This document shows, one piece after another, positions 15,461-30,880 of a stretch of DNA of 64,000 bases. The notes beneath the pieces are model-generated. The model was not told the DNA's origin. It was given only the letters and a program-made list of their open reading frames with translations, and did no database searches. The stretch covers positions 250,604 to 314,603 of the forward strand of contig NZ_JABEKT010000003.1 in the NCBI RefSeq assembly GCF_013283195.1. Direction: 5' to 3'. Source of the stretch: Ensifer adhaerens. Lineage in GTDB: Bacteria > Pseudomonadota > Alphaproteobacteria > Rhizobiales > Rhizobiaceae. The number at the start of each line of letters is the position of its first letter. The stretch's first letter is position 1. The position numbers and the translations under genes are program-made.

Positions 15461-15571
15461 ACCGATGAAAAAGCGGTCGAGTTCAGGGCTTGTACGGCAC
15501 GCGGGTCGATCAAGCGGTAACGGTGCGACATTTGCAGCCATGCGCGCCCGCCACCCGGTGTGGTGAGTGCA

Positions 15572-16699
15572 CTATCGCTCGAGCGGGTGTGCCTCCAGGA
15601 CTCGCCCGGCGATAGAACTACCTTCTGCATCAAAAATGTGGATGTCAGGCGCTTGGGCCGTGAACCGTATGGTGTCCATGCTTGCGTATGCTCTGTCGTC
15701 CGCCGCCTTGATCAGGTATTTTTGCGCAGAACCGGCCACATCGACGTAAAGAATCTGAACTTCGCCCAGATGCTCGACAAAATCGACCGTGCCGGTAATC
15801 ACCGGTCCACTTTCCCTTGATGCCATGAGGTGCGTGTTCTCAGGGCGAATGCCGATGCTGATCCTTTCGCCCACTGACAGCGCCCCGCGATCGTCAGACA
15901 CCTCTAGCGCCGCGCCGCATTGAAGCATGAGGTGCGCGACGCCCTCCGACTTCCCGACGACCGTGCCTTCGAGAATGTTCATCGCGGGCGAGCCGATGAA
16001 CTGGGCGACGAAAAGGTTGGCCGGTCGCTTATATAGTTCCAGGGGCGTTCCAACCTGCTCGATGTTCCCGTCCTTGAATACGACGATGCGGTCGGCCAAG
16101 GTCATTGCCTCTACCTGGTCATGGGTCACATAGATCATGGTCACATCCGGCATGTTTCGCTTCAATTTGGCGATTTCGATCCGTGTCGCCACCCGCAACG
16201 CCGCGTCGAGGTTGGAAAGCGGTTCGTCGAAGAGGAAGACCCGCGGATTGCGGACGATGGCGCGGCCGATGGCAACCCGTTGCCGCTGTCCGCCCGAAAG
16301 CGCTTTCGGCAACCTCTGCAGATACTTGCCGAGTTGCAGGATCTCTCCCGCCTTGTGAACCCGCCCGTCGATCTCGGTCTTCGACACGCCGGCAATGCGC
16401 AGTCCGAAAGCCATGTTTTCATAGACGGTCATATGCGGATAGAGGGCATAGGACTGGAACACCATGGAAATGCCGCGCTTGGAAGGCGCCACCGTGTTCA
16501 TCCGCTCCCCTTCGATGACGAGGTCGCCCGATGTTATCGTCTCGAGACCCGCGATCGTACGCAGCAGTGTCGACTTTCCGCAGCCGGAGGGCCCGACAAA
16601 GACGATGAATTCTCCCGACTTGATATCGAGGTCGATCCCGTGCAGCACCTCAAAATCGGCATAAGCCTTGCGTATGTTTCTCAGCGTCAGATCAGCCAT
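15572..16699 (-). CDS. ABC transporter ATPase, MalK/UgpC type
   Basis: The product is 375 residues. Walker A is GPSGCGKSTLLRTIAGLE, the Q-loop is VFQSYALYPHM, the signature LSGGQRQRVAIGRAI, Walker B VFLFDEPLSNLDA and the H-loop YVTHDQVEAMTLADRI. The C-terminal TOBE/OB domain (SIGIRPENTHL) marks the MalK/UgpC group that powers sugar importers. It is the last gene of the minus-strand operon that also carries the matching binding protein (21578-22903) and permeases, so it almost certainly energises that importer. Confidence 0.92.
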   Translation of the reverse strand: MADLTLRNIRKAYADFEVLHGIDLDIKSGEFIVFVGPSGCGKSTLLRTIAGLETITSGDLVIEGERMNTVAPSKRGISMVFQSYALYPHMTVYENMAFGLRIAGVSKTEIDGRVHKAGEILQLGKYLQRLPKALSGGQRQRVAIGRAIVRNPRVFLFDEPLSNLDAALRVATRIEIAKLKRNMPDVTMIYVTHDQVEAMTLADRIVVFKDGNIEQVGTPLELYKRPANLFVAQFIGSPAMNILEGTVVGKSEGVAHLMLQCGAALEVSDDRGALSVGERISIGIRPENTHLMASRESGPVITGTVDFVEHLGEVQILYVDVAGSAQKYLIKAADDRAYASMDTIRFTAQAPDIHIFDAEGSSIAGRVLEAHPLER

Positions 16700-16745
16700 C
16701 GTTCCCGCTCCATTTCCTTGATTTCACCCGCGAAGACACCGCCCG

Positions 16746-18149
16746 TCAGGGCGCGAGCCCGGCCAGGAACCGCGTTATCCGATCCGGCTTCCGGTTTTGG
16801 ATTTCGAGGTCATTCTTCCGGCGAATGGCCCCACGGACTACCCTGGCCCCCGCGTAGCGCAGGGGTTCTGGCGGCAGCCGCGTCCGTCTGGCGATGCCGA
16901 CCAGCCCGCACCGGCTCCACACATCGTCGCGGCCCAGCACAAGGCTTGCCATGATCTTCCCGGCGACTGGCGCTTGCGCGATGCCCGTGCCGTTGAAACC
17001 CATGGCATAGAAGATGTTCGGGTGATCTCTCAGACGATCAAAAACCGGGAGGTGCTGCGCCGTGCAGTCGATGGGCCCGGTCCAATCGTAGAGAACTGGC
17101 ACGCCTTTGAGTTGCGGATAGACCCGATGCATTTCGCGGATATTGTCCGCCCCGGCATCGCCGCTGCGGTTGAATCGATGGTCGATCCGGTCACCAAAGG
17201 CAATGCCGCCCGTGCCACGCCCGAAGATGACTTCGCCGCCTGGCGTTCGCTGATAATAGAGCACGTGATGCTGCGCATCGCAGATCGAGGCGCCACCGGT
17301 CCAGCCGATTTCATCCAGAACGTCAGGTACAGGTGCGGTGGCGATGACCTGGCTGCTGACGACGTAGAGATAGGGGTGCAGTTCCGGAATTGCCGACAGC
17401 CAGGCGTTTGCGGCAAGGATCACCTTGCCGGCAGACAGCACGCCTTTTGCTGTTCGCAACTGCGGTCTGTCGCCTGGCACGATTTCGAGAACCGGACTGT
17501 GCTCGCGAATAACGACGCCCCTGGAAAGGGCGAGCCGGCGCAGGCCGAGGGCGAGCTTTGCGGGGTGGACAGTCCCTGCCCTCTCCTCCACGATGCCGAC
17601 ATAGGAGGCTACGGAGCCCGTGCGCAGCAGGATTTCTGTACGCTTGAGCGGTCGGAAGCGGTCTTCGCCCATCGTACGGCACACGTTGCAAGCTTGCGCC
17701 CAGGCGCCTTCCTGAGCGGTCGAGCTTGCCGTCCACAGCCAGCCGTCGAGCCGCAGATCCATGTCGATGGTGCCTGCGGCCTGCAAGCTGCTCAGTTCTT
17801 CGATGGCATCAGTGGTCGCGCGGCACAGCATGAGTGCTTCATCTGCACCCACAAGCGCCCGCAGCATATCGATTTCGGCAAACCAGCTGTGAACCTGACC
17901 GCCATTGCGGCCAGAAGCGCCCGACCCGCAGAAGTCAGCCTCAAGAACGGTCACGCGCGTCTGCGGGGCTTCCTCCTTTATCCGAAGAGCCGACCAGAGA
18001 CCGGCATATCCGCCGCCGACGATCGCCACGTCGCAGTCCTCACTGCCATGCAAAGGAGCGGTGACGGCGTCCGCATCGATGCTCTGCAGCCAGTAGGAAC
18101 GGTCACCCTTTGCTGCAGCCACAGGCGGCCTCATCTTGATGATGTTCAT
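16746..18149 (-). CDS. FAD-dependent amine/amino-acid oxidase (DadA/PuuB-like)
   Basis: The product is 467 residues from ATG 18149 (MNIIKMRPPVAAAKGDRSYW). The dinucleotide-binding motif CDVAIVGGGYAGLWSALRI lies at about residues 39-57, then VLEADFCGSGASGRNGGQ, the flavin-contact motif of the DAO fold. The C-terminal YAMGFNGTGIAQAPVAGKI completes the FAD site. Relatives oxidise secondary or N-alkylated amines and D-amino acids to imines with H2O2 release. It starts 2 bases after the PfkB kinase stop, so it is operonic. Context suggests oxidative deglycation of a sugar-amine, which is inference. Confidence 0.85.
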   Translation of the reverse strand: MNIIKMRPPVAAAKGDRSYWLQSIDADAVTAPLHGSEDCDVAIVGGGYAGLWSALRIKEEAPQTRVTVLEADFCGSGASGRNGGQVHSWFAEIDMLRALVGADEALMLCRATTDAIEELSSLQAAGTIDMDLRLDGWLWTASSTAQEGAWAQACNVCRTMGEDRFRPLKRTEILLRTGSVASYVGIVEERAGTVHPAKLALGLRRLALSRGVVIREHSPVLEIVPGDRPQLRTAKGVLSAGKVILAANAWLSAIPELHPYLYVVSSQVIATAPVPDVLDEIGWTGGASICDAQHHVLYYQRTPGGEVIFGRGTGGIAFGDRIDHRFNRSGDAGADNIREMHRVYPQLKGVPVLYDWTGPIDCTAQHLPVFDRLRDHPNIFYAMGFNGTGIAQAPVAGKIMASLVLGRDDVWSRCGLVGIARRTRLPPEPLRYAGARVVRGAIRRKNDLEIQNRKPDRITRFLAGLAP

Positions 18150-18151
18150 GC

Positions 18152-19015
18152 TCAAGCCCTTTGTGTCGTGCGGATAACGCTGTCGTACTTGTCCAGCAAC
18201 CATTGGGGAATTGCCTGGATCGGCTGGGGAAACCCACCGAGATGTGTGCAGGTTTCCGCTGCCCTCCCGGCAGAACGGTCAAGAGCCGCCTCCCCGGAAA
18301 GCATCTCGAAGAAGCGCGATACGAGGAAAGTCGCAATGAAACTGTCCCCCGCGCCGCAGGTATCGACCACGGCCACCGGCACCGAGCCGGCCTCAAACAG
18401 CGTGCCGCCATCGTCATGGAAGGAACCGCGCCTGCCGCAGGTGATCACAACCTGGCGCGCGCCCGCCGCCTTGAACCGCGCGATCAGCGGCTCGACCGGC
18501 TCGGTAGGGTCTTCAGGGCCGGAAGCGAACACCAGTGGCACCCCTTCGAGCGGGAGGTCGAAATGCCGTGTGGAGACATCGATGCTGAATGCCACGGCAT
18601 CGGCGACGAGGCGGCGGACCAGCCGCTCGCTCGAATTTGTACCGAGATGCACCCAGTTGGCCTGCAACAGCGCTGTGTAACGTTCAGCGTTAGGGACATA
18701 GTCCTCGCCGACGCCGAGGGACTCTAAGAGAAAGCGCCGCTCGCCGGCGTCGTCGCTCAGGAGCGTCACAGCCGAAGCGCCCGGACGTATTTCGATATCG
18801 GCCCGGGCGAGGCCTGCATCCTCAATGGCGCCAACCATGATCTCCGCTTCCTCGTCCGGCCCGAGCGCGCCGAAATAACGGGCATTCAAGCCCTGCCGGC
18901 GCCACTGGACGGCGACATTGAGGGCATTGCCGCCCACGGTGAGGAAGCCCTTGCTGAGATAGGCGTCGAGGCAATTGTCGCCGACGGCGATCAGGGTAGG
19001 ATTGGCGTTCTTCAT
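18152..19015 (-). CDS. PfkB-family sugar kinase (FrlD-like)
   Basis: The product is 287 residues from ATG 19015 (MKNANPTLIAVGDNCLDAYL). PfkB signature 1 is visible as FLTVGGNALNVAVQWRRQG and signature 2 as VAVVDTCGAGDSFIATFLVS, with the catalytic Asp in GAGD. The short chain and early GDNCLD resemble fructoselysine 6-kinase FrlD, which phosphorylates Amadori compounds at C6. Its ATG overlaps the stop of the FrlC-like epimerase (ATGA). Assignment to Amadori substrates depends on the neighbouring SIS and epimerase genes. Confidence 0.85.
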   Translation of the reverse strand: MKNANPTLIAVGDNCLDAYLSKGFLTVGGNALNVAVQWRRQGLNARYFGALGPDEEAEIMVGAIEDAGLARADIEIRPGASAVTLLSDDAGERRFLLESLGVGEDYVPNAERYTALLQANWVHLGTNSSERLVRRLVADAVAFSIDVSTRHFDLPLEGVPLVFASGPEDPTEPVEPLIARFKAAGARQVVITCGRRGSFHDDGGTLFEAGSVPVAVVDTCGAGDSFIATFLVSRFFEMLSGEAALDRSAGRAAETCTHLGGFPQPIQAIPQWLLDKYDSVIRTTQRA

Positions 19016-19731
19016 GCTTGTTCCACTTGATTGAAATGAGGGGCAACCGCCTCGAGGCACCGCCGCCAGGTGAAAGGGGGATCGAGGGCATAGCTTCCGT
19101 TGCCGAAGGGCTCGAACGTCAGCGTGCCGGTAAAACCATACATGCCGAGTTCGGCGAGATAGTCGCTGAGCGGCAGGTTGCCGTCACCCCAGGCCAGATG
19201 CCCAGCCGGCGTGCCGTCGACGACATGGACGTGGGCGATGCACTTTGCGAACCGCTCGAAATAGCCCAAGACGCTGTCGCCCGCCGTCGCCATGGCGACA
19301 AGGTCAAGAACCACGTCGATATGGTCGTCGTCGAGCGAACGCCTCAGGGCATAAAGCTCATCCGCATTTGTTAGGATATTGCTTTCGACGGGCTGGAGCG
19401 GCTCCAGCAGGCAGGACACGCCAATGTCTCTGGCATGCGCCGCAATCCGGGTGATGGATGCGACCGAATGCGCAAAGGCGATGTCCCGGCTTTCGCACTC
19501 GAAGCCACGGCCCGGCGTTAGGAAGAGGTAAGTCGCGCCAAGCTCGGCGCAGATGTCGGCGGCGTGCAGGAAACGTTGCGCGCAGCTGTCGTGGAAGAGG
19601 TCGAGATGGGGGGCGATCCCCCACAGTTCCATCCGGTCGAACCCCATGGCGCACAGGTGCTCGGCAGTCCAGCGGAACGGATGGTGCTGAAAGGAGAAGT
19701 TCGCACCGATGAGCTGTTTGCGGTTCAACAT
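19012..19731 (-). CDS. Sugar-phosphate isomerase/epimerase, FrlC-like TIM barrel
   Basis: The product is 239 residues from ATG 19731 (MLNRKQLIGANFSFQHHPFR). TIM-barrel metal-site elements are ATYLFLTPGRGFECES, VSCLLEPLQPVES with the metal-binding Glu, DVVLDLVAMATAGDS, IAHVHVVDGTPAGHLAWGDG with the conserved HVxD/H motif, and TLTFEPFGNG with the last Glu. FrlC in E. coli epimerises fructoselysine at C3. Length, the HPFRW-like N-terminus and the position next to a PfkB kinase support this type; the substrate is inferred. Confidence 0.8.
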   Translation of the reverse strand: MLNRKQLIGANFSFQHHPFRWTAEHLCAMGFDRMELWGIAPHLDLFHDSCAQRFLHAADICAELGATYLFLTPGRGFECESRDIAFAHSVASITRIAAHARDIGVSCLLEPLQPVESNILTNADELYALRRSLDDDHIDVVLDLVAMATAGDSVLGYFERFAKCIAHVHVVDGTPAGHLAWGDGNLPLSDYLAELGMYGFTGTLTFEPFGNGSYALDPPFTWRRCLEAVAPHFNQVEQA

Positions 19732-19741
19732 ATGCCCTGCC

Positions 19742-20602
19742 CTATTTGCCGATGCCCTCGGCAAGCCCGCGGATGAAGAAGCGCTGAGCCGCGAAGAAGG
19801 TGACGACGATGGGAAACGCCGAGAGCGTCATCGCCGCGAAGACGACGGCGTAGTTCGTTCCGTGCTTCGACATGATGGAGGTGAGGCCGACGGGCAGTGT
19901 CTGGAGGTCCGCGCCGCTGGTGAAGATCATGGCGAAGAGATATTCGTTCCAAGCGAAGAGGACATGCAGGATCACGCATGAGACCAGGATCGGTTTGCAG
20001 AGCGGCAGCGTCACCCGCCAGAAGATCTGGCCTTCGCTCGCCCCGTCCATGATGGCCGCCTCGTCCAGGTCACGCGGCAGGCCGAGCATATAGGCGCGGA
20101 TGAGGAAGGTCGTGAAGGGAATGCGGAAGGCGATATAGAGGATGATCAGCGCCCAGTAGGTATTGTAGAGGCCGAGCTCCTGCATCATGCGCACGAGCGG
20201 GATGACCGCGACCGTCGGGCTCAGCATGAGCCCGCCGAGCACGATGCCGACGAAGAAGGGCTTTCCCGGCAGTTTCGAGCGGGTGAGGCCGTAGGCGGTA
20301 CAGGCGCTGACCAGCACCGTACAGATGGCCGAGCCCAAGGTGACGATGATGCTCGTCGCGATATAGTTGCGGATGCCCTGGTTCCAGGCCGAGATGTAGT
20401 TCGCGATGCTGAAACCGCCCGGTAAGGCGAACGGATTGCCGAAGATCTCAGCATTGGTTTTGAAGCCGTTCAGCGCCATCCACAACAGCGGATAGAGCAC
20501 GATGACGCCGAGGCTGACGAGGAAGGTGACGAGGCAGACCTTCGCTAATCCGGCGATGAAATCGGTGCGCCGAGCTTCCGGGAGTTGAGAGGACGTGCTC
20601 AC
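19742..20602 (-). CDS. Sugar ABC transporter permease (MalG type)
   Basis: The product is 286 residues from a GTG at 20602 that overlaps the stop of the other permease gene; this is the only start that avoids reading through it. Six membrane helices are visible, and the EAA loop DEAAIMDGASEGQIFWRVTLP is typical of MalG-like subunits that contact the MalK ATPase. The C-terminus (AQRFFIRGLAEGIGK) carries the family ending FxxGLxxGAxK. It forms the heterodimeric channel with the 20599-21564 product. Confidence 0.9.
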   Translation of the reverse strand: MSTSSQLPEARRTDFIAGLAKVCLVTFLVSLGVIVLYPLLWMALNGFKTNAEIFGNPFALPGGFSIANYISAWNQGIRNYIATSIIVTLGSAICTVLVSACTAYGLTRSKLPGKPFFVGIVLGGLMLSPTVAVIPLVRMMQELGLYNTYWALIILYIAFRIPFTTFLIRAYMLGLPRDLDEAAIMDGASEGQIFWRVTLPLCKPILVSCVILHVLFAWNEYLFAMIFTSGADLQTLPVGLTSIMSKHGTNYAVVFAAMTLSAFPIVVTFFAAQRFFIRGLAEGIGK

Positions 20603-21564
20603 AGATCGACCCTCCGTCGCTTGGTGTACCAGAGCTGCGCGAAGCCGGTGATGAGCGTGATGACGAAGATGACCGATGCGATGGCCGCGCCGTAGCCGAA
20701 GTCGTTTTCGATGAAGCCCTGCTGGTAGAGCCATGTGCCCAGCACCTGGCTGCTGTTGTTCGGCCCTCCACCGGTCATCACCATGACCTCGTTGAAGACC
20801 TGGAACGCGCCGGTGATCGTGACGATCACCATGAGGCCAGTCATTTCGCGGGTCAGCGGAAAGGTGATGTTCCACAGGCGCCGCCAGGTTCCCGCACCGT
20901 CCATGATCGCTGCGTCGTAGAGTTCGCGCGGGATCTTCTGGATCGCGATGGCAAACAGCAGCGTGGAATATCCAAAGCCCTGCCACTGGCTCATGGCGAT
21001 GATGGCATAGATCGCGGTTCCCTCCTCGCCGAGCCAGGCGCGGGACCAATGCGCAAACCCGATTTGCGTCAACGCCGAATCCAGTAGGCCGATATCGGGC
21101 TGGTAAATGAAATAGAACAGGAGGCCGGTGACGGTGATCGAGATGGCCGAGGGTATGAAATAGACGGCGCGCCAAAACCGGCGCCATCTCTCCTCGCTCA
21201 GCCCCTCGATGAGCGCGGCGAGCACGAACGCGCCGAAAACCTGGAAAATGACGGAGATGACCGCATAGAGCGTGTTGTTGACGATCGCCGTCCATACGAC
21301 CGGATCGTCCTGCAGGCGCCGGTAATTGTCGAGCCCGACGAAGTCGGTCTGGCCCGTGAAGATGTCCTGGTTCCGCGTGCTGACGAAGAAGTTGTCAATG
21401 ATCGGGTAATAGACAAACCAGAGGATCAGGACGAAGGCGATAAGGACCCAGCGGAAGGACAGGATCCCGGCGAACGGACCGAGCCGGTCTTTTTCAGGCC
21501 GGCCCGGCCCGGCGAAGCCGATTTTGACGGCTCCACCCTTATAGTCTTGCTTTATGACAGTCAT
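20599..21564 (-). CDS. Sugar ABC transporter permease (MalF type)
   Basis: The product is 321 residues with six helices (first WVLIAFVLILWFVYYPII) and the EAA loop YDAAIMDGAGTWRRLWNITF. The FVGLDNYRRLQDDP segment after helix 1 is characteristic of MalF/UgpA-type subunits. The gene begins 13 bases after the binding-protein stop and overlaps the next permease start, showing tight co-translation. Confidence 0.9.
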   Translation of the reverse strand: MTVIKQDYKGGAVKIGFAGPGRPEKDRLGPFAGILSFRWVLIAFVLILWFVYYPIIDNFFVSTRNQDIFTGQTDFVGLDNYRRLQDDPVVWTAIVNNTLYAVISVIFQVFGAFVLAALIEGLSEERWRRFWRAVYFIPSAISITVTGLLFYFIYQPDIGLLDSALTQIGFAHWSRAWLGEEGTAIYAIIAMSQWQGFGYSTLLFAIAIQKIPRELYDAAIMDGAGTWRRLWNITFPLTREMTGLMVIVTITGAFQVFNEVMVMTGGGPNNSSQVLGTWLYQQGFIENDFGYGAAIASVIFVITLITGFAQLWYTKRRRVDL

Positions 21565-21577
21565 CGTCGGCCTGTTC

Positions 21578-22903
21578 CTACTTGGACGAAGCCGCCGCTT
21601 CCCTGACCCGTCCCATGACCTCTTCAGGGGTCATGGTGTTGCCGATCAGCGCCTGGAGGCCCGAAAGCCAGGCGGCCGCCACGCGCGGCGGATTGGCCGT
21701 GTCGAGCCAGGGCATGAGATAGGAGGAATCGGCGATCACCTTCAGGCCGTCCACGACCGCGGGGTTCATGGCATCGGCGGAATAGCCGCCGACCGTCGCG
21801 CTCGGCTGGCCGTAGGGCGGCGCCGAAAGCACCTTGCCGTTGTCGGCTGAGGTGACGAACCGCATGAAGTCGATCGCCAGCGGAATGTTCTTCGAGGCGG
21901 TGCTGATCATGTATCCCTCGGGCGCGCCCTCGATGGACTTGACGTCGCCCTTGGCGTCGGCGGGCGCCGGCAGCTTGAAGAAGCCGAAGTCCTCGCGCTT
22001 CAGCGCACCGTCGGCCGTCGCTTGGTCGAACTCGATGATCTCCTGGTAGTACATGGCGGACTGGCCGTTGCTGAACTGCTGCAGGGCCGTGGCATAGGAG
22101 GAGCCGTTGGTGCCCGATCCGTCGGAGCATTCGTCGATCAGCTTTTTGAATTGCGTTAGGCTGGCGACGTAGCCGGGATCTGCAAATTCCGCCGTAGCCG
22201 GGACGAAGTCCTTTTCGAGCGTCGCCTGCGGCACGTTGTAGGCGAGCAGTTGCCCGGCATAGTGCACGCCCGGCCAGCCCTCCTTATTGCCGAAAGAAAC
22301 CGGCGTGACGCCCGACTTGCGCAGTGCAGCGCAAGCAGCCAGGAGCTCGTCGAAGGTCTGGGGCACGGAAACGCCCGCCTTTTCGAACAGGCTCTTGTTG
22401 TAGCCCATGAACTTGGCGTCAAGATAAAGCGGAATGCCGTAAAGCTTACCGTTGTACTGGAAGGCGGAGACGGCGGCGGCGGCGAGCGTCTTTCCCCATT
22501 CGGTTTCCGGGCCGATGACCGGCGTCAGATCGACGGCTCGGTTGCCGCGCACGAAATTCTCGCCCCAGCTTCCCGTCCAGGTGAAATAGACATCTGGCAG
22601 CGAATTGGAAGCCACCAGCGCCTTCGTCTTGCCCTTCACGCTGTCGTCGCTCTCCTGGATGAGCTCCACTTTCACGTCGGGATGCAGCTTTTCGTATGCC
22701 TGGGCCGCATTGACGAAGAAGGGGGAGAGCTGCTGCAAGCCGAATTTCGTCAGCACGCTGACCGTGCCGGAATATTCGACCGCGGCATTGGGATCGGCAA
22801 CGACGGGATCGGCCGCGCTCGCGCCGCTGACGCCGCCGATGACGAATGCGGCCGCGACAGTCGACCCGAGCCTTGTCGTGCTCAAGAACGTGTTGGTCTT
22901 CAT
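21578..22903 (-). CDS. Sugar ABC transporter binding protein (family 1)
   Basis: The product is 441 residues from ATG 22903 (MKTNTFLSTTRLGSTVAA), with a signal peptide ending ASA. The mature protein shows VSVLTKFGLQQLSPFFVNAA, YEKLHPDVKVELIQESDDS, LPDVYFTWTGSWGENFVRG and KLYGIPLYLDAKFMGYNKSL, the usual MalE/UgpB-like landmarks. It captures an oligosaccharide, polyol or glycosylated amine in the periplasm. The ribosome-binding site AGAGGAA is good. A 12-bp hairpin (22952-22979) lies just upstream, between this gene and the SIS gene. Confidence 0.9.
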   Translation of the reverse strand: MKTNTFLSTTRLGSTVAAAFVIGGVSGASAADPVVADPNAAVEYSGTVSVLTKFGLQQLSPFFVNAAQAYEKLHPDVKVELIQESDDSVKGKTKALVASNSLPDVYFTWTGSWGENFVRGNRAVDLTPVIGPETEWGKTLAAAAVSAFQYNGKLYGIPLYLDAKFMGYNKSLFEKAGVSVPQTFDELLAACAALRKSGVTPVSFGNKEGWPGVHYAGQLLAYNVPQATLEKDFVPATAEFADPGYVASLTQFKKLIDECSDGSGTNGSSYATALQQFSNGQSAMYYQEIIEFDQATADGALKREDFGFFKLPAPADAKGDVKSIEGAPEGYMISTASKNIPLAIDFMRFVTSADNGKVLSAPPYGQPSATVGGYSADAMNPAVVDGLKVIADSSYLMPWLDTANPPRVAAAWLSGLQALIGNTMTPEEVMGRVREAAASSK

Positions 22904-22951
22904 TTCGCAGTTCCTCTCTTTTTTTGTTTCCTGGGGCATGCATGACGGCAT

Positions 22952-22979
22952 CCCGGTCCGGCGCGTTCGCCGGACCGGG
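22952..22979. terminator. Intercistronic 12-bp hairpin
   Basis: CCCGGTCCGGCG, a 4-base CGTT loop, then the exact complement. It lies 7 bases after the SIS gene stop and 49 bases before the binding-protein start. With no clear T run it may be a partial terminator or an mRNA processing/stability element that sets binding-protein levels apart from the deglycase. Confidence 0.55.
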
Positions 22980-22985
22980 CGAACC

Positions 22986-23999
22986 TCAATATTCGACGCG
23001 CTTGTAGTAGCGGCGCGTCGTCAGCGGATGATCGCGCAGGACTTCCAGATGGGCGCTCAGGCGCTCCAGCATGGTCGCGAGGAGGACCGGGGAGATGACG
23101 CTGCGAGTCTTGCCGGAAACGCCCGGCAGGCTGGCGGACGCGGCATCGAGGACACGCACCTTGTCGGTGTAGCGTCGGGCAAAATTCTCGACACGCTCCG
23201 TGAGCGGCCGGCAAGCATCCTCACCCTTGAAGATGAACAGGCTGACGCCCGGCTCCAGCAGCTCGAGCGTACCGTGGAAGAAGTCCGACGCATGAACCGG
23301 ACGAGTGCGGATCCACTGCATCTCTTCGAGGATGCACATGCCGTAATAGTGGGCTTCCGGCCACGCGGCGCCCGCGCCCGTGAAGATATGGTAAGTCTCG
23401 TCCTTGATGTCCCTGGCGAGGGCCGCGGCATCAGCCTCATAGCCTTCTTTAACCGAAACCAGCAGCTCCGGCAGCAGCTTGAGTTCGGCCACCGTCGCAT
23501 CGAAATCGGGATATTCGCCGCGCTCGGCCAGAAGCGCGAGGACGATGATCAGGGTCTGCAGGTAGAAGGATTCCGAGGAGGTATCGTCCTCTGCAAAATT
23601 GGTGAAGTTGTGGTCGGCGTCACGGCCGAGCGGCGTGTCCTTGTGGCCGGTGAGCGACAGCGTCCTGACGCCACGCTCCTTGAGGAAGGACAGGAGCTGC
23701 ACGCTTTCCTTCGTGGTGCCGGACAGCGAGGGCAGGACGACCAACGCCTTCTCGTTCAGGCCGGCCGGGGGCTCCAGCACGACTTGCGCCGAATAGGCCG
23801 CCGAAACCGGGAAAACCGTCGAAGCGCGCGCAAGCTCGATGGCCGGCTGGGTGAGGAACTGCACGCCGCCGGTCCCCATGAAGAAAATGCGTTCCAGACC
23901 GTCGTCGAGCAGACCGCGCATCAGGGCGCGCATGTCGTCGGCGATTGCGACTGCACCGCTTTGTATTTTCACAAAGCGATCTCTATCGAAGTTGAGCAT
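22986..23999 (-). CDS. SIS-domain sugar isomerase, FrlB-like deglycase candidate
   Basis: The product is 337 residues from ATG 23999 (MLNFDRDRFVKIQSGAVAIA). The first SIS domain contains RIFFMGTGGVQFLTQPAIEL and LVVLPSLSGTTKESVQLLSF, in which the Ser/Thr cluster SLSGTTKES binds sugar phosphate. The second contains HIFTGAGAAWPEAHYYGMCI, PVHASDFFHGTLELL and SLFIFKGEDACR. The HASDFFHGTLE block resembles FrlB and the GlmS isomerase domain. FrlB splits fructoselysine-6-P into glucose-6-P and lysine. With an FrlC-like epimerase and PfkB kinase downstream, a deglycase role is the best reading. Confidence 0.8.
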   Translation of the reverse strand: MLNFDRDRFVKIQSGAVAIADDMRALMRGLLDDGLERIFFMGTGGVQFLTQPAIELARASTVFPVSAAYSAQVVLEPPAGLNEKALVVLPSLSGTTKESVQLLSFLKERGVRTLSLTGHKDTPLGRDADHNFTNFAEDDTSSESFYLQTLIIVLALLAERGEYPDFDATVAELKLLPELLVSVKEGYEADAAALARDIKDETYHIFTGAGAAWPEAHYYGMCILEEMQWIRTRPVHASDFFHGTLELLEPGVSLFIFKGEDACRPLTERVENFARRYTDKVRVLDAASASLPGVSGKTRSVISPVLLATMLERLSAHLEVLRDHPLTTRRYYKRVEY

Positions 24000-24077
24000 T
24001 TGTACCTTCCCGTTTTGCGCTGCGCGAAATCGCCTCCGAGGCGACGTGGCGTCCTTGCGCGAATAATCTCTGAGACG

Positions 24078-24097
24078 ATGTGAGATCGATCTCACAT
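24078..24097. promoter_or_regulatory. Perfect 20-bp palindrome, LacI-type operator
   Basis: ATGTGAGATCGATCTCACAT is identical to its reverse complement and has the central CG step typical of LacI-family operators. It lies 79 bases upstream of the SIS gene start, between that gene and the lacI-type gene, so it probably controls the whole transport/catabolism operon. Confidence 0.7.
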
Positions 24098-24169
24098 ATA
24101 TTTAGTGCACAAGACTTTCGCGCTGGCAAGTGGGCGTCTCGAATATTTTGAGGCGGGGGTTTGCTACGC

Positions 24170-25192
24170 TCAGACGCCGCTGCGACGACTGACGGAGCCG
24201 CGAACTATCAGCTTGGTTTCAAACCGGATTTCCTGCGGCGCGTCGTCCTTGCCGGCGAGCCGTTCGAATAAAATCCGGGCGGCCGCGCGGCCGATTTCTG
24301 GGACGGGCTGCGAAACGACCGTAATCTGCGGATCGGTGAACGTCGCCAGATTGAAGTCGTCGAAACCGATGAGCGAGACGTCGTGCGGGATGGAAACGCC
24401 CATGGAACGGAAGGCCAGCAGTGCGCCCTGGGTCATCAGGCTGTCGACGGTGAAAAGCGCCGTCGGCGGGGACTTCTGGCTGAAGAGCCGTATGGTCGCA
24501 TCGACCGCGTGTTCCACCGTGGATTGCGACACGGCGACCATACGGTCGTCGGCCGCGATCGCAGCGGCGGCGAGCGCCGACCTATAACCGCTCCTGCGCT
24601 CGCGGGAGGTGAAGATACGCATGTCGTCCTGCAACAGACCGATGCGGGTATGGCCCATGCCGATCAGGTATTCGACGGCCTTGCGGGCGCCGCCCTCGTT
24701 GTCGACGACGACGCTGTCGCAATCGACGCCCTCGGCGACACGGTCGATCAGCACCAGCGGCACGTCCTCGTCGATCAGACCCTGCAGGTGGGCGTTGTTG
24801 CCCTGCGAGGTTGGCGCGACAATGAAGCCGCGTATGCTGAGCGACCGCAGGCTCGCCAGAAGGGAAATTTCCTGCGCCAACTCCTCCTCGCTGCTGCCGA
24901 TGACGAGATTGTGCCCGCGCTCGCGCGCGAGCACCTCGACATCGTGCGCGATACGGGCGAAGAACGGGTTCTGGATATCGCCGACGATGCAGCCGACGAT
25001 CGGCAATTGACCGCTGCGCAGCGCCTGCGCGAGGCGGTTGCCGCGATAGCCGAGCTTTTCTGCGGCCGCCTGGACCTTCTGGGCGGTTTCGTCGCCGACA
25101 TATCCGTAACTGTTGAGAGCCCGCGCGGCCGTTGCGCGCGATACATTGGCCAGCGCCGCCACATCCTTCAAAGTCGCCGGTTTACGGACCAT
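24170..25192 (-). CDS. LacI-family transcriptional regulator
   Basis: The product is 340 residues from ATG 25192 behind GGAGGTGAC. The helix-turn-helix is ATLKDVAALANVSRATAARA and the hinge helix NRLAQALRSGQ. The effector domain runs from PIVGCIVGDIQNPFFARIAH to DVSLIGFDDFNLATFTDPQI and TVVSQPVPEIGRAAARILFE, the classic LacI C-terminal pattern. It lies immediately upstream of the SIS/ABC operon, which bears a perfect palindrome in its leader, so it is the likely repressor, presumably released by a sugar or sugar-amine. Confidence 0.9.
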   Translation of the reverse strand: MVRKPATLKDVAALANVSRATAARALNSYGYVGDETAQKVQAAAEKLGYRGNRLAQALRSGQLPIVGCIVGDIQNPFFARIAHDVEVLARERGHNLVIGSSEEELAQEISLLASLRSLSIRGFIVAPTSQGNNAHLQGLIDEDVPLVLIDRVAEGVDCDSVVVDNEGGARKAVEYLIGMGHTRIGLLQDDMRIFTSRERRSGYRSALAAAAIAADDRMVAVSQSTVEHAVDATIRLFSQKSPPTALFTVDSLMTQGALLAFRSMGVSIPHDVSLIGFDDFNLATFTDPQITVVSQPVPEIGRAAARILFERLAGKDDAPQEIRFETKLIVRGSVSRRSGV

Positions 25193-25300
25193 GTCACCTC
25201 CAATCTTACAAGCAGGACGCTTCGCGATCCCTTGTAGCTTCGGGCAGCAGGTTCGCCTAGTCATGCGGGTGACGGACGACTTCCTGCCCCTAAAGCGGCG

Positions 25301-26032
25301 TCATTTACGAACGAGGCTGAAGGAGAAATGGCTGCCGCGATGGTAGTCGATGGCGTAGTTAACCGGCGCGCCGGCAGCGTTGAAACAGGTTTCCGTGATG
25401 AGAAGCGCCGGACCGAAGTCCTTTAGGCCATGGCGCTCGACCACGTCGTCCGGCAGCATGACGGCGGAAACGCTGGCCGCCGACATGCGCGGACGGTTCC
25501 CGTATTCCTCCATGAGCTGCATCAGCGAGCCACTCCAGTCGATGTCGTAGAGGCGCTCTTCGATGAGGCTGCGCGGCATGTAATCGATGCAGTAGAGGAT
25601 CGGCTCATCCTCGTGCAGGCGGATGCGCTCGATACGGATCACGCGTTCCGCCGGGCCAAGCCTTAGGCTCTCGGCGACGCACGCGTCCGGCGCCTCCTCG
25701 GAGATCGAAAGCACCTTGTTGACCGTCCGGTAGCCGTAGTGCCGCGCCATGTCCGTGACGCTCTCGAAGACGGTGATCGGTCGATCGACCTGCACGGCCG
25801 AGAGCGCCGAGACGAACCGGCCGCGGCCGTGCTCGACATTAATCACATCGTCTTGTTCGAGCAATTTCAGCGCCTCGCGCAGCGCCGGCCGGGAAATCTT
25901 AAAACGCTGCGTCAGCTGTGCTTCGGTCGGCAACCTGTCGCCCGGCTTCAGCCCTTTATCCTTAATAAGATCGGCGATCCGGTCCCGGAGCTGGACAGCG
26001 AGGGTGCGTGAATCGCGAAGGGGTTCCTCCAC
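25301..26032 (-). CDS. GntR-family regulator with UTRA domain (HutC type)
   Basis: The product is 243 residues. The winged helix includes DKGLKPGDRLPTEAQLTQRF and ISRPALREALKLLEQDDVIN. The C-terminal UTRA ligand domain includes RLGPAERVIRIERIRLHEDE, PILYCIDYMPRSLIEERL and YAIDYHRGSHFSFSLVRK. In E. coli the frl operon is controlled by FrlR, a member of this same family. The gene lies between the LacI-controlled block and the amino-acid block. The palindrome TTGTCTGACAA lies 37 bases upstream and recurs before the binding-protein gene at 30430. Confidence 0.88.
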   Translation of the reverse strand: MEEPLRDSRTLAVQLRDRIADLIKDKGLKPGDRLPTEAQLTQRFKISRPALREALKLLEQDDVINVEHGRGRFVSALSAVQVDRPITVFESVTDMARHYGYRTVNKVLSISEEAPDACVAESLRLGPAERVIRIERIRLHEDEPILYCIDYMPRSLIEERLYDIDWSGSLMQLMEEYGNRPRMSAASVSAVMLPDDVVERHGLKDFGPALLITETCFNAAGAPVNYAIDYHRGSHFSFSLVRK

Positions 26033-26068
26033 CGGCGTGCCTCGTCATTCATTGTCGTTGCAACTTCC

Positions 26069-26079
26069 TTGTCTGACAA
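26069..26079. promoter_or_regulatory. GntR operator candidate, site 1
   Basis: TTGTCTGACAA is a palindrome around one central base and fits TnGTnnnACnA. It sits 37 bases upstream of the UTRA-type GntR gene, suggesting autoregulation. Confidence 0.55.
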
Positions 26080-26189
26080 ATCCGGGATGGTCAAGTGCAT
26101 GGCGCATGCAGGAATCGTGCGCGAGATGGTGCGCTACCAGCCGCTGGATCTCCAAGCGTCACCTTGACAGGCCATATCCACAATGTCCG

Positions 26190-26200
26190 TTGTCTTACAA
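26190..26200. promoter_or_regulatory. GntR operator candidate, site 2
   Basis: TTGTCTTACAA differs from site 1 by one base and lies 110 bases further upstream in the same gene-free interval (26033-26383). Two copies in one leader would suit cooperative repression. Confidence 0.4.
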
Positions 26201-26383
26201 CTTTGGAATCTGTGACAATGAAGACAGGCCATGCTGAACTTCGACGAACAGCCATTCCTGCGCACCCAGTCGGGCGTCTCGGCTCGCCGAACCGGATCGA
26301 AACGGTGATCGTATCCTGTCTTCGGCCGGCACAGAAATCATCTTCTTGCCAGCACCGCCGCCAGAAACCCACTGCCCTCGAGG

Positions 26384-27271
26384 CTATTTCAGGACAAGCC
26401 AGCCGGACAGAATGATGATTGCCGCGCCCAGCAGCGTGTAAACCTCTAACGGCGTTGCGAAGAGGAACATGCCGTATAGGCAGCCCCAGATGATCTGACT
26501 GTACTGGAACGGTGCAACGACCGAAGCCTCGCCAACACGGAAAGCGCGCACCAGCAACGCATGTCCACCCAGCATCAAGGCACCGCCTGCGACTGAGAAG
26601 CCAAGATCGGAAAGATCGGGCGGCGCTGGCTCGCCCGAAACAGCCGCAACCGCGAAGGCGACAGGCGTCATGACGACGAGCAGGCTGGCGACCAGCGCTT
26701 CATCCGTTTCCGCCACCTTCGCCCGGCGCAGGAGGATTAACGAAAGTGCAAAAAGCACGGCGGAACCAAAGGCGGCGAGATGGCCGAAATTGAGCGGCGC
26801 GACGCCCGGTTTCAGCGCCACGACGACGCCGGCAAACCCGATCAATACACCGGCCCAGCCAATACGCGACAGCCGTTCCCCGAGGAAGACGAAGCTCAGC
26901 ATCGCCACCAGGATCGGCGTCATGAAGGCGATAAGATAGGCTTCCGCAAGTGGCAACTTGGCGAAGGCATAGTGTATCAGCAGCGTATCGAGGGCCAGCA
27001 GCAGCGCTCGCCAGAAGGCGAGCGACGGTTCGCGCGGGATGAGGCGGCGAAGACGGCCGGTCACGAGCGCATGGACCAGGAGCAGAAGGAGAGCTGCAAT
27101 GGTGACGAAAAAGGTCACCTGCGGCGCCGGCATCTTTCCTGCCATGATCTTGACGATCGCATCGGTTGCAGAGAACACAAAGAAGGCGGCGAGCACGAGC
27201 AGCGCGCCCCGACCGTTGGACGGCACGACCGGCGTGCCGTCCCCGTCTGCCACGGATGCCTCAGCGGACAT
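26384..27271 (-). CDS. EamA/DMT-superfamily exporter
   Basis: The product is 295 residues from ATG 27271 (MSAEASVADGDGTPVV), which overlaps the end of the ABC permease gene by 11 bases. Ten membrane helices form two EamA repeats; FVFSATDAIVKIMAGKMP opens the first and AEAYLIAFMTPILVAMLSFV lies in the pore region. DMT proteins export amino acids or other metabolites. As the last gene of an amino-acid-uptake/oxidase operon it may export a by-product or an excess amino acid. Confidence 0.85.
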   Translation of the reverse strand: MSAEASVADGDGTPVVPSNGRGALLVLAAFFVFSATDAIVKIMAGKMPAPQVTFFVTIAALLLLLVHALVTGRLRRLIPREPSLAFWRALLLALDTLLIHYAFAKLPLAEAYLIAFMTPILVAMLSFVFLGERLSRIGWAGVLIGFAGVVVALKPGVAPLNFGHLAAFGSAVLFALSLILLRRAKVAETDEALVASLLVVMTPVAFAVAAVSGEPAPPDLSDLGFSVAGGALMLGGHALLVRAFRVGEASVVAPFQYSQIIWGCLYGMFLFATPLEVYTLLGAAIIILSGWLVLK

Positions 27272-28232
27272 TGAAGCGGCCAAACCTTTCCTCGATGCGG
27301 GACTGGGCATATTCCAGGCAAATCGAAAGGGCCCAGTAGATCATCGAGGCGGTGATCAGCATCTCGATATGTCTGAATTCCGTCTGGCCCTGAGTGCGGG
27401 CGAGATACATGATTTCCCAGACGCCGACGACGGAGACCAGCGAGGAATCCTTCAGCATTGCGATGAACTGGTTGCCGGTTGGCGGGATGATAACGCGCAT
27501 GGCCTGCGGCAAGATGACCAGCATCATCGTCTGCGCCGGGCTAAGACCGAGCGCGGTGGCGCCCTCCGTCTGTCCTCGATTGATGCTCTGGATACCGGCG
27601 CGAAAAATTTCCGTCATGTAGGCGCCGTAGCAGAGCGAGAGCGCAAGAATGCCGGCCGGTACGGCGCCGATCACGTAACCCACCTGCGGCAGGCCGAGAT
27701 AGATGATGTAGATTTGCATGAGCAGCGGCAGTCCGCGGAAAAGCGACGTATAGAACGTTGCAAGCCCGTAGATCACGCCATTGTTGGAGAGTTTCGCGAT
27801 GGCGCCAGCCAGCGCGATGATGGTGGCGATGACGATCGAAATCGCCGAAATGAAGAGCGTCGTCGTCACGCCCTGCGTGATGAGGAAGCCGATCTTCTTG
27901 GCGATGAAGGCGAAGGAAAGATCGAAGGAGTAGAAGAACAGCATCAGGAGCGCGAAAAGCTCAAGCCAGACAGCGATGATCTGCTGGCGGCGTGACAGCT
28001 GGCGCAGCGCCTTCCAATTGGCGGCAACGATGAGCGCGATCAGCACCGACGAGGCTACGCGGCTGATCGCAGGGTTCTCCTTTAGCCAGTCTGTCGAGGA
28101 CGGCAGAACATGGCCGATCCAGGCGGAACTGACCCCGAGGGCGTAAAGGAGCACCACGACGATCGCAAGGATTAGCAAGCCGCCGGCCCTGCGCGACGCT
28201 TCGGGATAGGTGAGTATCAGTCGACCAATCAT
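27261..28232 (-). CDS. Polar-amino-acid ABC permease (HisM type)
   Basis: The product is 323 residues, about 100 longer at the N-terminus than simple HisM/GlnP subunits because of extra helices (LLILAIVVVLLYALGVSSA and VWLELFALLMLFFYSFD). The core holds TLFISAISIVIATIIALAG, LFRGLPLLMQIYIIYLGLP, the EAA-like loop GATALGLSPAQTMMLVILPQ and IPPTGNQFIAMLKDSSLVSV. It presumably homodimerises. No ATPase of this type is encoded in the block, so an unlinked ATPase would be needed. Confidence 0.88.
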   Translation of the reverse strand: MIGRLILTYPEASRRAGGLLILAIVVVLLYALGVSSAWIGHVLPSSTDWLKENPAISRVASSVLIALIVAANWKALRQLSRRQQIIAVWLELFALLMLFFYSFDLSFAFIAKKIGFLITQGVTTTLFISAISIVIATIIALAGAIAKLSNNGVIYGLATFYTSLFRGLPLLMQIYIIYLGLPQVGYVIGAVPAGILALSLCYGAYMTEIFRAGIQSINRGQTEGATALGLSPAQTMMLVILPQAMRVIIPPTGNQFIAMLKDSSLVSVVGVWEIMYLARTQGQTEFRHIEMLITASMIYWALSICLEYAQSRIEERFGRFNVR

Positions 28233-28262
28233 ATTCCGCCCCCTTTTTAATGTAGAAGCTGC

Positions 28263-29543
28263 TTAAGCCGCACGCTCGCGCCACCAGTCCTGCGCCTGGA
28301 GTTTCCAGTAGGTGAGCTGTGCCACCGCAAGCCCGGCAAGGCCGCCGGCCCAGACGAGACCGAATGGCTCGTAAAGCTTGTAACGTTCGCTTGTCCCCAA
28401 AATGCCCTCGGCAATGACCTTGCCGCCGATCGCCGTGGTGTTGAGGCCGTGACCGCCGAAAGCGGTGCAGTACCAGATGCCTGGGCTCATACGCCCGATC
28501 TGAGGCATCAGGTGACGGGCATAGGACATGAGGCCTGACCAGGCGAGCTCCGTCTTGAGTCCGGCGAGTTGCGGATAGGTATCGACCATTTCGGCCCGCA
28601 GTTCCTTGACGAGGCCAGCGGTCGAGGCAGCGTGCGTGGTGATACGCCCGCCCCAGAGGATCCGGCGGCCGCCGTCGACGAGGCGGTAGTAGTCACCCGC
28701 CCGGCGGTTGTCGCCGATTGCGTTCTTCGTGGCGATCGCTGTGGCGATCAGCTCCGGCGCCTCCTCGCTGACCATCACATACGTGGCAATCGGCAGATAG
28801 GAACGCTTCAGCCTGGCATTTAGCGAACCGGTATACCCACCCGTCGTGAAGACGACGTCACGGGCCTTAACCTCGCCCCGTGCGGTTTTTACACGTTTTT
28901 CAGAATGGGAAGAATCCACTGAAGTCGCCGGCGACTGCTCACAGATGCGCCCACCAAGCCGCTCGATCTCCGCCGCGATGGCACGCAGATAGTTAAGCGG
29001 GTGCATATGGAAGGCATTCGGATTACGCAATGCCTGGAAGTAGCGCTCGGATTTCAGCACGGCACGCACGGCGTCCTGGTCCATGTATTCGAGTTCGTAG
29101 CCGTATTCGCGGCTCACATCCTCGGCATAGGCCTTTAGGCTCGCGCTATCGTCGTATCGCAGAACGCTCATGATCCCCCGCTCTGGCTTCGCATCATCGA
29201 TGCCGAGCGCCTTGATGTTCTCGCGGACGAATTCCATGCCTTCGACGGAGAGGAGGTGCAGCTTGCGCGCCGCATCTTTGCCGGTGACGCGGGCTATGTC
29301 GTCGCCGCCGGTTGCATAACCGGGGCTGACGAACCCGCCATTTCGGCCGGACGCACCGAAGCCGACGCTCTCGGCCTCCAGCACCGTGACGCTCTTACCG
29401 GCGCGCGCAAGCTGCAGCGCCGTCGAAAGGCCGGCAAGGCCGCCGCCGATGATGACCGCGTCACATTCGACCGTACCCGAAAGGGCTGGTCGCCCCGTTC
29501 GGTCTGCCATCGTTCGTCTATAGTAGGTGTCTGGATAAGTCAT
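28263..29543 (-). CDS. FAD-dependent amine oxidase (PuuB/DadA-like)
   Basis: The product is 426 residues from ATG 29543 (MTYPDTYYRRTMADRTG) behind GGAGGGGGAG. FAD-binding elements are CDAVIIGGGLAGLSTALQLA, VLEAESVGFGASGRNGGFV and the C-terminal CTAFGGHGLNTTAIGGKVIA. This is the gamma-glutamylputrescine-oxidase/glycine-oxidase group. It is related to, but clearly different from, the oxidase at 16746-18149. Being coupled to an amino-acid-type importer, it probably oxidises an imported N-substituted amino acid; opine or Amadori substrates are reasonable guesses. Confidence 0.85.
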   Translation of the reverse strand: MTYPDTYYRRTMADRTGRPALSGTVECDAVIIGGGLAGLSTALQLARAGKSVTVLEAESVGFGASGRNGGFVSPGYATGGDDIARVTGKDAARKLHLLSVEGMEFVRENIKALGIDDAKPERGIMSVLRYDDSASLKAYAEDVSREYGYELEYMDQDAVRAVLKSERYFQALRNPNAFHMHPLNYLRAIAAEIERLGGRICEQSPATSVDSSHSEKRVKTARGEVKARDVVFTTGGYTGSLNARLKRSYLPIATYVMVSEEAPELIATAIATKNAIGDNRRAGDYYRLVDGGRRILWGGRITTHAASTAGLVKELRAEMVDTYPQLAGLKTELAWSGLMSYARHLMPQIGRMSPGIWYCTAFGGHGLNTTAIGGKVIAEGILGTSERYKLYEPFGLVWAGGLAGLAVAQLTYWKLQAQDWWRERAA

Positions 29544-29571
29544 CGGCACGCTCCCCCTCCAATGAAAGGTT

Positions 29572-29591
29572 GCGGGCGAAAGGACGCCCGC
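29572..29591. terminator. Intercistronic hairpin after binding-protein gene
   Basis: GCGGGCG, loop AAAGGA, CGCCCGC, located 12 bases after the binding-protein stop. Such hairpins often stabilise the upstream mRNA or partly terminate, keeping binding protein in excess over downstream enzymes. Confidence 0.5.
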
Positions 29592-29602: not shown

Positions 29603-30430
29603 TCAGTCGGCGCTGTAGTCTTTGCCATACCACTTGGTGGTGAGCTGGCCGAGCGTGCCGTCACTCTTCATCTCTTCGACGATTCCACCGACCTTGGCCG
29701 TCCACTCCGGGTCGACCTTCTCGGCGATAACGACGAGTGGCTCACGGAAGGCATATTCGCCATCGAGAACCTTGACCGGATAGCCATTCTTAATGGCATT
29801 CATAGCGGTCTGTTCGGGTGCGATCACCGCATCGAGGCGAACGCCAGCGCCGAGGCGCAGGTCGTCGAAGGGCAGCATGGAATCGGCGAAGGTGCGGACC
29901 TCACCCGGCTCGAGCTTGTATTCGATCGGCGGCAGGCCCGGGGCGTCGATTTCCAGCTTGCGGTTGATGAAGTCTTCCGAGGTCGTCGCCGTTTCGACGC
30001 CGACCACTTTGCCGTTGAGGTCGGTGACGGTCTTGGCGTCGCTGTCCTTGTGCACGACGTACACATAGGGGCTGTAGTAGTAGATACCGACGAAATCGAT
30101 CACTTGGGCGCGTGCCTTAGTGGGCGTGACCGAACCGACACCGAGGTCGTAACGGCCCTGCCATCGCCCACCCGTGAGGGTCGCCCAGTCCGGCGTCTCG
30201 AAGCTCACCTCGACCCCGAGGCGCTTGGCGATCTCGCGCGACACGTCGATGTCGAAGCCAACCATCTCGTTGCTGTCGTCGAGATAACTCTGGGGTGGCC
30301 AGCCGCTGTTGGTGGCGACGACCATCGCCTTCTTTTCCATGACGCGATCCAACGTCTCGCCAGCATGGGCCGATACGGCGGCAGCGACAAAGGCAACACC
30401 TACGGTCAGTCGCATGAAGAGCTTTTTCAT
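29603..30430 (-). CDS. Polar-amino-acid ABC binding protein (family 3)
   Basis: The product is 275 residues from ATG 30430 (MKKLFMRLTVGVAFVAAAV) with a GGAGGACC site and a signal peptide ending AHA. The family 3 signature is VGFDIDVSREIAKRLGVEVS, followed by GRYDLGVGSVTPTKARAQVI and the C-terminal GGIVEEMKSDGTLGQLTTKW. It captures an amino-acid-like ligand. It is the first gene of the 30430-26384 operon, with the GntR-like palindrome 49 bases upstream of its start. Confidence 0.9.
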   Translation of the reverse strand: MKKLFMRLTVGVAFVAAAVSAHAGETLDRVMEKKAMVVATNSGWPPQSYLDDSNEMVGFDIDVSREIAKRLGVEVSFETPDWATLTGGRWQGRYDLGVGSVTPTKARAQVIDFVGIYYYSPYVYVVHKDSDAKTVTDLNGKVVGVETATTSEDFINRKLEIDAPGLPPIEYKLEPGEVRTFADSMLPFDDLRLGAGVRLDAVIAPEQTAMNAIKNGYPVKVLDGEYAFREPLVVIAEKVDPEWTAKVGGIVEEMKSDGTLGQLTTKWYGKDYSAD

Positions 30431-30478
30431 GTGGTCCTCCTTGTGATCCGTCAGTTTGGATCCCCGTTTATGTAAGAT

Positions 30479-30489
30479 GTCTGACAACC
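30479..30489. promoter_or_regulatory. GntR operator candidate, site 3
   Basis: ATGTCTGACAA matches site 1 in 10 of 11 bases, and TGTAAGA, part of the reversed site 2, overlaps it on the left. Its position before the binding-protein gene links the second catabolic block to the UTRA-type GntR regulator. Confidence 0.5.
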
Positions 30490-30880
30490 CAAGTGTCTCA
30501 ACACCCGCTGTCGCGAGTCAAGGGGCCACTCTTTCCGATTCATGAAAGAACGAGATCAATACATGTCTTATAGATATGAAGCTGGCTGGTCGACAGATCG
30601 GCCACTCCAGATCAAACCATTTGCTTCGATCGAGAAGAAGACTAGGGGGACACGCATTCCTGATAACCGTCGCGCCTCATCACGACAAAAGGCGCACCCT
30701 GGCAGGGGTCAAATTTGTATAGCGGTTTCGTGGTTATGACCTGAACCGATCCGGCCGCAAGGCAGCCAGCATGGGATGCTCAGCACGGGTTGCGAGGCCT
30801 TAAGCCAGTAGGACCAGCATCCAGAAGGCCTATGGCCGTCCCTACCGACCATTCGGGCCCCTCCACGGGATACTCCACGA
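30490..30880. other. Gene-free interval at the edge of the catabolic island
   Basis: Upstream region of the amino-acid block. No protein family recognised; it probably marks the boundary of the metabolic segment. Confidence 0.35.

Follow-up and report, generated by a model that had tools for sequence, protein, structure and literature searches.

A putative Amadori-compound operon of Ensifer adhaerens with an importer-linked FAD oxidoreductase and a second, soc-linked copy

A 64,000-nt stretch of the Ensifer adhaerens genome (assembly GCF_013283195.1, contig NZ_JABEKT010000003.1, positions 250,604–314,603 of the forward strand; hereafter, the window) was analyzed with regard to a putative operon for the import and degradation of Amadori compounds, which occupies positions 15572–25264 on the minus strand. 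Every gene of the set is an open reading frame. In the order of transcription, a LacI-family regulator (24170..25192; Pfam LacI and Peripla_BP_3 domains, likely start at the ATG at 25192) is followed by a SIS-domain protein that we place among the sugar-phosphate deglycases of the FrlB/GfrF/FraB type (22986..23999; 337 aa from the ATG at 23999), by a family-1 solute-binding protein (SBP) of a sugar-type ATP-binding cassette (ABC) importer (21578..22903; SBP_bac_1 domain, frame from the ATG at 22903) and by two permeases with BPD_transp_1 domains, one UgpA/MalF-like (20599..21564) and the other GlcU/UgpE/MalG-like with a GTG start (19742..20602). Further downstream lie an FrlC-like epimerase with a xylose-isomerase-like triosephosphate isomerase (TIM) barrel (19012..19731; AP_endonuc_2), an FrlD-like PfkB kinase carrying a DTCGAGD motif (18152..19015), a PuuB-like flavin adenine dinucleotide (FAD) oxidoreductase with a DAO domain, here named DAO1 (16746..18149), and a UgpC/MalK-type ATPase with ABC_tran and MalK OB/TOBE domains (15572..16699), which reaches the cut-off of the NCBIfam UgpC subfamily. 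The epimerase stop and the kinase start overlap (ATGA at 19012–19015), and the kinase stop at 18152 nearly touches the DAO1 start at 18149. All the genes that an earlier sequence-only reading had claimed for this region are present, with the domains it gave for them.

The SIS protein was placed by similarity searches and by a tree. In phmmer searches it matched PDB entry 2a3n, which we take to be Salmonella GfrF, at an E-value of 3.5e-60 and entry 3eua, presumably B. subtilis FrlB, at 1e-40, while GlmS was matched at about 1e-6. Identification of 2a3n as FraB was considered and dropped, since a named FraB is only 26% identical. A tree of 32 rows set the 30 rows of the deglycase type apart from AgaS and GlmS (100/97) and paired the window SIS with 2a3n (100/99). 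It did not cluster with GlmS or AgaS in this tree, the outcome that the sequence-only reading had set against itself, but grouped with the deglycases. Further, E226 and H242 of the window protein align with E214 and H230 of FraB, which we assume to be its catalytic residues, and Glu and His are kept at these columns in the 30 deglycase-type rows. Among plasmid records with a SIS match, 171 of 425 belonged to Enterococcus, and those listed were about 22–37% identical.

In line with this placement, the best NCBIfam matches of the SIS protein, the kinase and the epimerase were fructoselysine 6-phosphate deglycase (92 of 430 bits), fructoselysine 6-kinase (FrlD; 117 of 247 bits) and fructoselysine 3-epimerase (FrlC; 81 of 305 bits), respectively, each below its curated cut-off. 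The placement of SIS and the FrlD and FrlC best matches support the kinase/deglycase pathway for Amadori compounds with its own importer that the sequence-only reading had proposed, and the assignment of the substrate class to Amadori compounds is well supported.

The epimerase gene is altered in both copies of the operon present in this genome. In an alignment with the second copy, located on contig C1 (see below), and with a Shinella relative, the window epimerase lacks 42 codons, in frame, while the second copy (L010, 15047–15814) lacks a different 26 codons, again in frame and including the HVH motif. The match in locus L012 is full-length. Across 53 loci having both flanking genes, a full epimerase was seen in 34 and a fragment in 2, and none was detected in the remaining 17 (11 of them of the LacI type). 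As judged from the alignment, the window enzyme is probably inactive. The epimerase would be dispensable, and its in-frame losses appear to be tolerated owing to the overlap of the kinase start with the epimerase stop.

To place the operon among its relatives, a GTDB genome scan was performed with six aligned SIS sequences, and the best 80 of at least 539 relatives were retained as a sample of close relatives, in which neighbouring genes were called by tblastn of the window and reference proteins. The neighbourhood search, a check put forward in the sequence-only reading, recovered the same gene order in dozens of loci, so the gene set is not a chance association. Of the 80 loci, 77 had a kinase match no more than 10 kb from SIS. 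The SBP was found beside SIS in 54 loci, and DAO1 was detected in 52 of these compared with none of the 26 loci without the SBP; in the two remaining SBP loci the contig ends 4982 and 762 bases past SIS, before the expected position of DAO1. This linkage of DAO1 to the importer holds in both Alphaproteobacteria and Actinobacteria, the latter contributing six SBP loci (L061, L062, L065, L067, L069 and L078) from Arthrobacter, Microbacterium, Naasia and Leifsonia. In the alphaproteobacterial loci the kinase gene adjoins that of DAO1, and in five of the six actinobacterial ones a GntR gene lies between the two. In a Cereibacter locus (L007, 3439–4887), a deletion has joined the rear parts of the kinase and of DAO1, with the FAD-binding front gone; the absence of the kinase there was set aside as evidence, since its rear persists in the fusion, which reflects joint decay of both genes and therefore provides no evidence either way.

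The analysis also covered 394 genomes of the family, with the best four or five candidates scored per genome. SIS occurred at E ≤ 1e-60 in 49 places in 48 genomes. The top class of DAO1 matches (E below 1e-240) comprised 13 places spread over 12 genomes, each of these places lying no more than 12 kb from SIS, and the next class (seven places, E 1e-147 to 1e-109) had no SIS nearby. A further genome (G054) carries DAO1 in two partial pieces, of which one sits at a contig end close to SIS and the other elsewhere. DAO1 belongs to the operon's system.

A 16-bp perfect palindrome, GTGAGATCGATCTCAC, lies at 24080..24095, 81–96 bp before the SIS ATG, and was considered as a candidate LacI operator. 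It was discovered among CG-centred palindromes upstream of SIS in 51 sequences, and the loci in which it was counted are the same as the discovery loci. Allowing up to three mismatches, it is located upstream of SIS in all 49 LacI-type loci (L012–L060, each with a LacI match beside SIS), exactly in 34 and with one to three mismatches in 15. In the 31 other loci (L061–L091) it was found upstream of SIS in none, and two of them carry three-mismatch sites elsewhere. The genome holds exactly two perfect sites, one before each SIS copy, and with up to two mismatches seven places were found versus one for the reversed pattern. Three-mismatch versions also occur in the LacI–SIS intervals of L126 and L009 and in the SocR–SocA interval of L022. 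Taken as a whole, LacI probably represses at this candidate operator. Two two-mismatch sites 75 bp apart (L139, 7267/7342; G000 C14:408267, 408342) lie before another ABC operon; they were rejected as part of the regulon, that operon having its own LacI-family gene.

On contig C1, the genome (7.07 Mb, 20 contigs) holds another copy of the SIS gene (97% identity across 369 residues), within a block that is 91.7–94.5% identical at the DNA level to window positions 15479–30811. Because the C1 copy covers this whole interval, the natural unit is larger than the operon. The duplicated block takes in a module located upstream of LacI on the same strand and consisting of a GntR/UTRA regulator (25301..26032), an EamA/DMT transporter (26384..27310), an amino-acid-type ABC permease (27261..28232), a second PuuB-like FAD oxidoreductase, DAO2 (28263..29543), and a family-3, amino-acid-type SBP (29603..30487; SBP_bac_3). 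On C1 the block is directly preceded by relatives of SocR, SocA, SocB, SocC and SocD with 80–95% identity to the genes of pAtC58, a region that we take to be socABCD, encoding an oxidative route for Amadori compounds; the soc gene names and functions reportedly stem from Baek et al. (2003). In the window the block ends inside the 3′ end of socD, of which about 50–75 bp remain (30734..30811 on the minus strand, placed by local alignment to the end of socD in L010); the window copy is thus the shortened one. SocD had a single match in the whole genome at E ≤ 1e-90. Near the edge of the duplicated block, a short open reading frame of the PALP family (13863–14342) matches 106 of 295 profile positions and looks truncated.

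According to passages of PMC8262997, soc genes are known from Rhizobiaceae and Micrococcaceae, and two of our loci with SocD are from Arthrobacter. Among the 80 loci, SocD (≥50% identity, ≥88% coverage) was present in 12 of the 54 with the SBP versus none of the 26 without it, and all 12 carry both SBP and DAO1, L012 and L030 being among them. In the family genomes SocD was detected in 39 of 394, and in six of these (G000, G270, G263, G054, G047 and G271), all of the DAO1 type, it lies 1.4–11.2 kb from SIS. In a Shinella locus (L004, 13598–17335), the operon adjoins genes for a SocD relative (83%), a further FAD enzyme and a second member of the epimerase family. DAO2 was found in 17 of the 26 loci without SBP, mostly in an arrangement of GntR and SIS-kinase followed by the amino-acid ABC/EamA/DAO2 cluster on the opposite strand. 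In the window and in L012, this cluster appears to have been linked up with the LacI operon. In the family genomes, 35 of 49 places in the top DAO2 class were within 12 kb of SIS compared with 0 of 20 in the lower class.

The sequence-only reading had suggested that two routes, kinase/deglycase and oxidative, serve one substrate class here. This part stood at the level of the island, where gene content on C1 and in relatives indicates that both routes are found together through SocD, with soc genes beside the C1 copy and SocD near SIS in 12 of 80 loci. What did not stand is the assignment of the oxidative step to the operon's own FAD enzyme, which had been likened to a soc-type oxidative deglycase. 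DAO1 is 31.6% identical to E. coli PuuB over 392 residues (151 bits), and DAO2 35% over 374 residues (213 bits). By comparison, DAO1 matched the AgaE-like Ti protein with 49 bits (35% over 81 residues) and the Shinella SocD relative with 24% identity over 263 residues (E 0.28), and a DAO1 relative from L053 scored 71 bits against the AgaE-like protein (about 25% over 420 residues) versus 152 bits for PuuB. Neither DAO1 nor DAO2 is closely related to SocD, and the DAO domain is common to DAO1, DAO2, SocD and the AgaE-like protein. TIGR03329 was the nearest named family for the window FAD oxidoreductase (407 of 633 bits, below cut-off). DAO1 was therefore rejected as a SocD-like amadoriase by homology: it is PuuB-like, its AgaE-like match is short or weak and SocD gave no match. 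Since DAO1 resembles PuuB rather than amadoriases, an oxidative route inside the window operon is unproven.

The AlphaFold model of DAO1 (predicted local distance difference test, pLDDT, 89.9) gave glycine oxidase, sarcosine oxidase and proline dehydrogenase as best fold matches, and its overall fold, as modelled, fits the sarcosine/glycine-oxidase group. This suggests amine oxidation with FAD, the substrate not being given by the fold. No solved amadoriase is named among the 50 structure matches listed for DAO1, which excludes nothing.

The gene content, gene order, family placement and soc linkage described above lead us to infer the substrate class and reactions as follows. We consider the operon, with a probability of about 0.8, a Gram-negative relative of frlBONMD-frlP serving the import, C6 phosphorylation and deglycation of Amadori compounds. 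The SBP, the two permeases and the UgpC-type ATPase would import an Amadori compound (fructosyl-amino acids or related glycated amines), the PfkB kinase would phosphorylate its sugar at C6, and the SIS deglycase would cleave the phosphorylated conjugate into hexose 6-phosphate and free amine. The FrlC-like epimerase, damaged in both copies, would serve the psicosyl form, and LacI would control the operon at GTGAGATCGATCTCAC.

Several observations weigh against parts of this picture. SIS, kinase and epimerase all score far under the NCBIfam equivalog cut-offs, and the exact substrate may for that reason differ from fructoselysine. Long branches (AgaS, FrlB, 2a3n, FraB and GlmS) drew a warning from the tree program. 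At the FraB columns, E. coli GlmS likewise has both Glu and His and AgaS shares the His; a deglycase is therefore not identified by this pair alone. The nearest folds to the AlphaFold model of the window SBP (pLDDT 85.5) bind xylo- and chito-oligosaccharides, a model-based likeness that does not settle the ligand. Three of the 80 loci have no kinase match within 10 kb, and each three-mismatch palindrome on the Ti plasmids and near SocR is close to chance, with 0.43 expected in 64 kb. As regards the FAD enzymes, window DAO1 is not close to the amadoriases compared, one DAO1 gene (G145) has an internal TAG, five of the 49 SIS places in the family genomes lack either DAO, and 14 of the 49 top-class DAO2 places are away from SIS, so DAO2 can live alone. 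Besides the socD scrap, the window contains no soc gene.

How the FAD enzymes fit in is a more tentative matter. Because DAO1 follows the importer rather than the kinase/deglycase pair, our guess, at rather less than even odds, is that it oxidises the C–N bond of those glycated amines which, once imported, are poor substrates of the kinase; the importer-linked distribution would make imported compounds a likelier target than a common product. In the same vein, rhizobial Amadori islands may be modular, with SocD paired to SocAB, DAO2 to the importer of the amino-acid type and DAO1 to that of the sugar type, so that every importer has a FAD oxidoreductase of its own and all of them feed into or share a single kinase/deglycase pair, with the C1 copy stacking all three; we put this forward as a plausible scheme that we would not yet bet on. 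If true, DAO1 and DAO2 would represent two glycated-amine oxidase families not described before, and one cell would use both the kinase/deglycase and the oxidative route, commonly treated as alternatives, for one substrate class.

Other roles of DAO1 were weighed against this one. It could be a true second amadoriase, in which case the operon itself would hold both routes. The placement of its fold in a secondary-amine oxidase group, the domain it has in common with SocD and the AgaE-like protein, and its tight linkage to Amadori genes all speak for this role; however, DAO1 is not close to SocD and is distant from the AgaE-like protein, and the retention of SocD together with DAO1 in L012 and L030 means that DAO1 is no simple replacement. 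We regard this as possible, although we lean against it. DAO1 might instead oxidise the amine or amino acid that deglycation sets free, much as PuuB acts on gamma-glutamylputrescine, with the sugar left to kinase and deglycase. Such a role would agree with PuuB being the nearest of the named enzymes compared, with the adjacency of kinase and DAO1 genes in alphaproteobacterial loci and with a window that has no SocC-type glucosone reductase, but it sits badly with an enzyme that tracks the importer and does not occur in SIS loci lacking the SBP, and we consider it rather unlikely.

Doubt may also be directed at the substrate. Sub-threshold matches to the frl equivalogs, PuuB-like oxidases and a sugar-type SBP with the fold of oligosaccharide binders would be consistent with another sugar-amine conjugate (e.g., opine-like, or a glycated polyamine) in place of an ordinary fructosyl-amino acid. 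The soc adjacency argues against this, as does the B. subtilis system of the same layout, which serves fructosevaline according to passages of PMC12632257, and we judge it improbable. Lastly, SIS could be a GlmS/AgaS-type amino-sugar isomerase or deaminase in an operon for ordinary amino sugars. Apart from the SIS domain itself, the weak GlmS similarity and the Glu/His columns common to GlmS, the data run the other way, as the tree and the long matches place SIS with the deglycases and its partners are FrlD- and FrlC-like; on these grounds the amino-sugar operon was ruled against, and we give it hardly any credence. The reading as an import, phosphorylation and deglycation operon for Amadori compounds is thus the one we prefer.

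Amadoriases serve in diabetes assays, and the DAO1 and DAO2 families may yield new glycated-amine oxidases. A widespread island with both routes adjacent and two importer-linked FAD families would also provide a clean test of concurrent routes. According to the introduction of PMC12632257, Amadori compounds are found in processed food as well as in humic matter, fruits and vegetables, and microbes deglycate them by amadoriases or fructosamine kinases. The parts of the operon belong to known families; its arrangement, the importer-linked FAD enzymes and the operator are apparently new, no description of them having been found in the open-access PubMed Central (PMC) text searched.

Among known systems, the B. 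subtilis frlBONMD-frlP genes encode, in order, the deglycase, SBP, two permeases, kinase and ATPase, and FrlONM-FrlP takes up fructosevaline, as set out in parts of PMC12632257. The window order is identical, a likeness of order that follows the published description, with 3eua as the sole protein compared by sequence. The window adds an epimerase in the gap between permease and kinase and DAO1 in that between kinase and ATPase, and it has an upstream LacI gene with a candidate palindromic operator where B. subtilis has a convergent FrlR. The E. coli frlABCD operon (NC_000913) has deglycase, epimerase and kinase families in common with the window, but it uses the transporter FrlA and has no FAD enzyme, in contrast with the ABC importer and DAO1 found here. 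With the Salmonella fra and gfr deglycases the window shares the SIS family and the aligned Glu/His, its nearest solved relative being 2a3n; transport differs, gfr using a phosphotransferase system (PTS; passages of PMC12675984) and fra a dicarboxylate-type transporter instead of an ABC importer. The Salmonella asparaginase gene fraE, beside fraB, has a parallel in the asparaginase genes found beside the related SIS loci L007 and L066.

With socABCD of Agrobacterium pAtC58, the window operon has in common the proposed substrate class, Amadori compounds, and differs in the oxidative route. The moc genes of the octopine-type Ti plasmid include LacI, SIS (about 31% identical) and an FrlD-type kinase as in the window, with a polyamine-type ABC importer and an Xaa-Pro peptidase in place of the other window genes; this set was observed on three Ti plasmids (L126, 6087–7937; L008, 9046–10896; L009, 8890–10740). 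We take the Ti-plasmid SIS protein and fructoselysine-6-kinase to be MocD and MocE. In the relevant part of PMC6341043, a mocD mutant is described as unable to degrade deoxyfructosyl glutamine.

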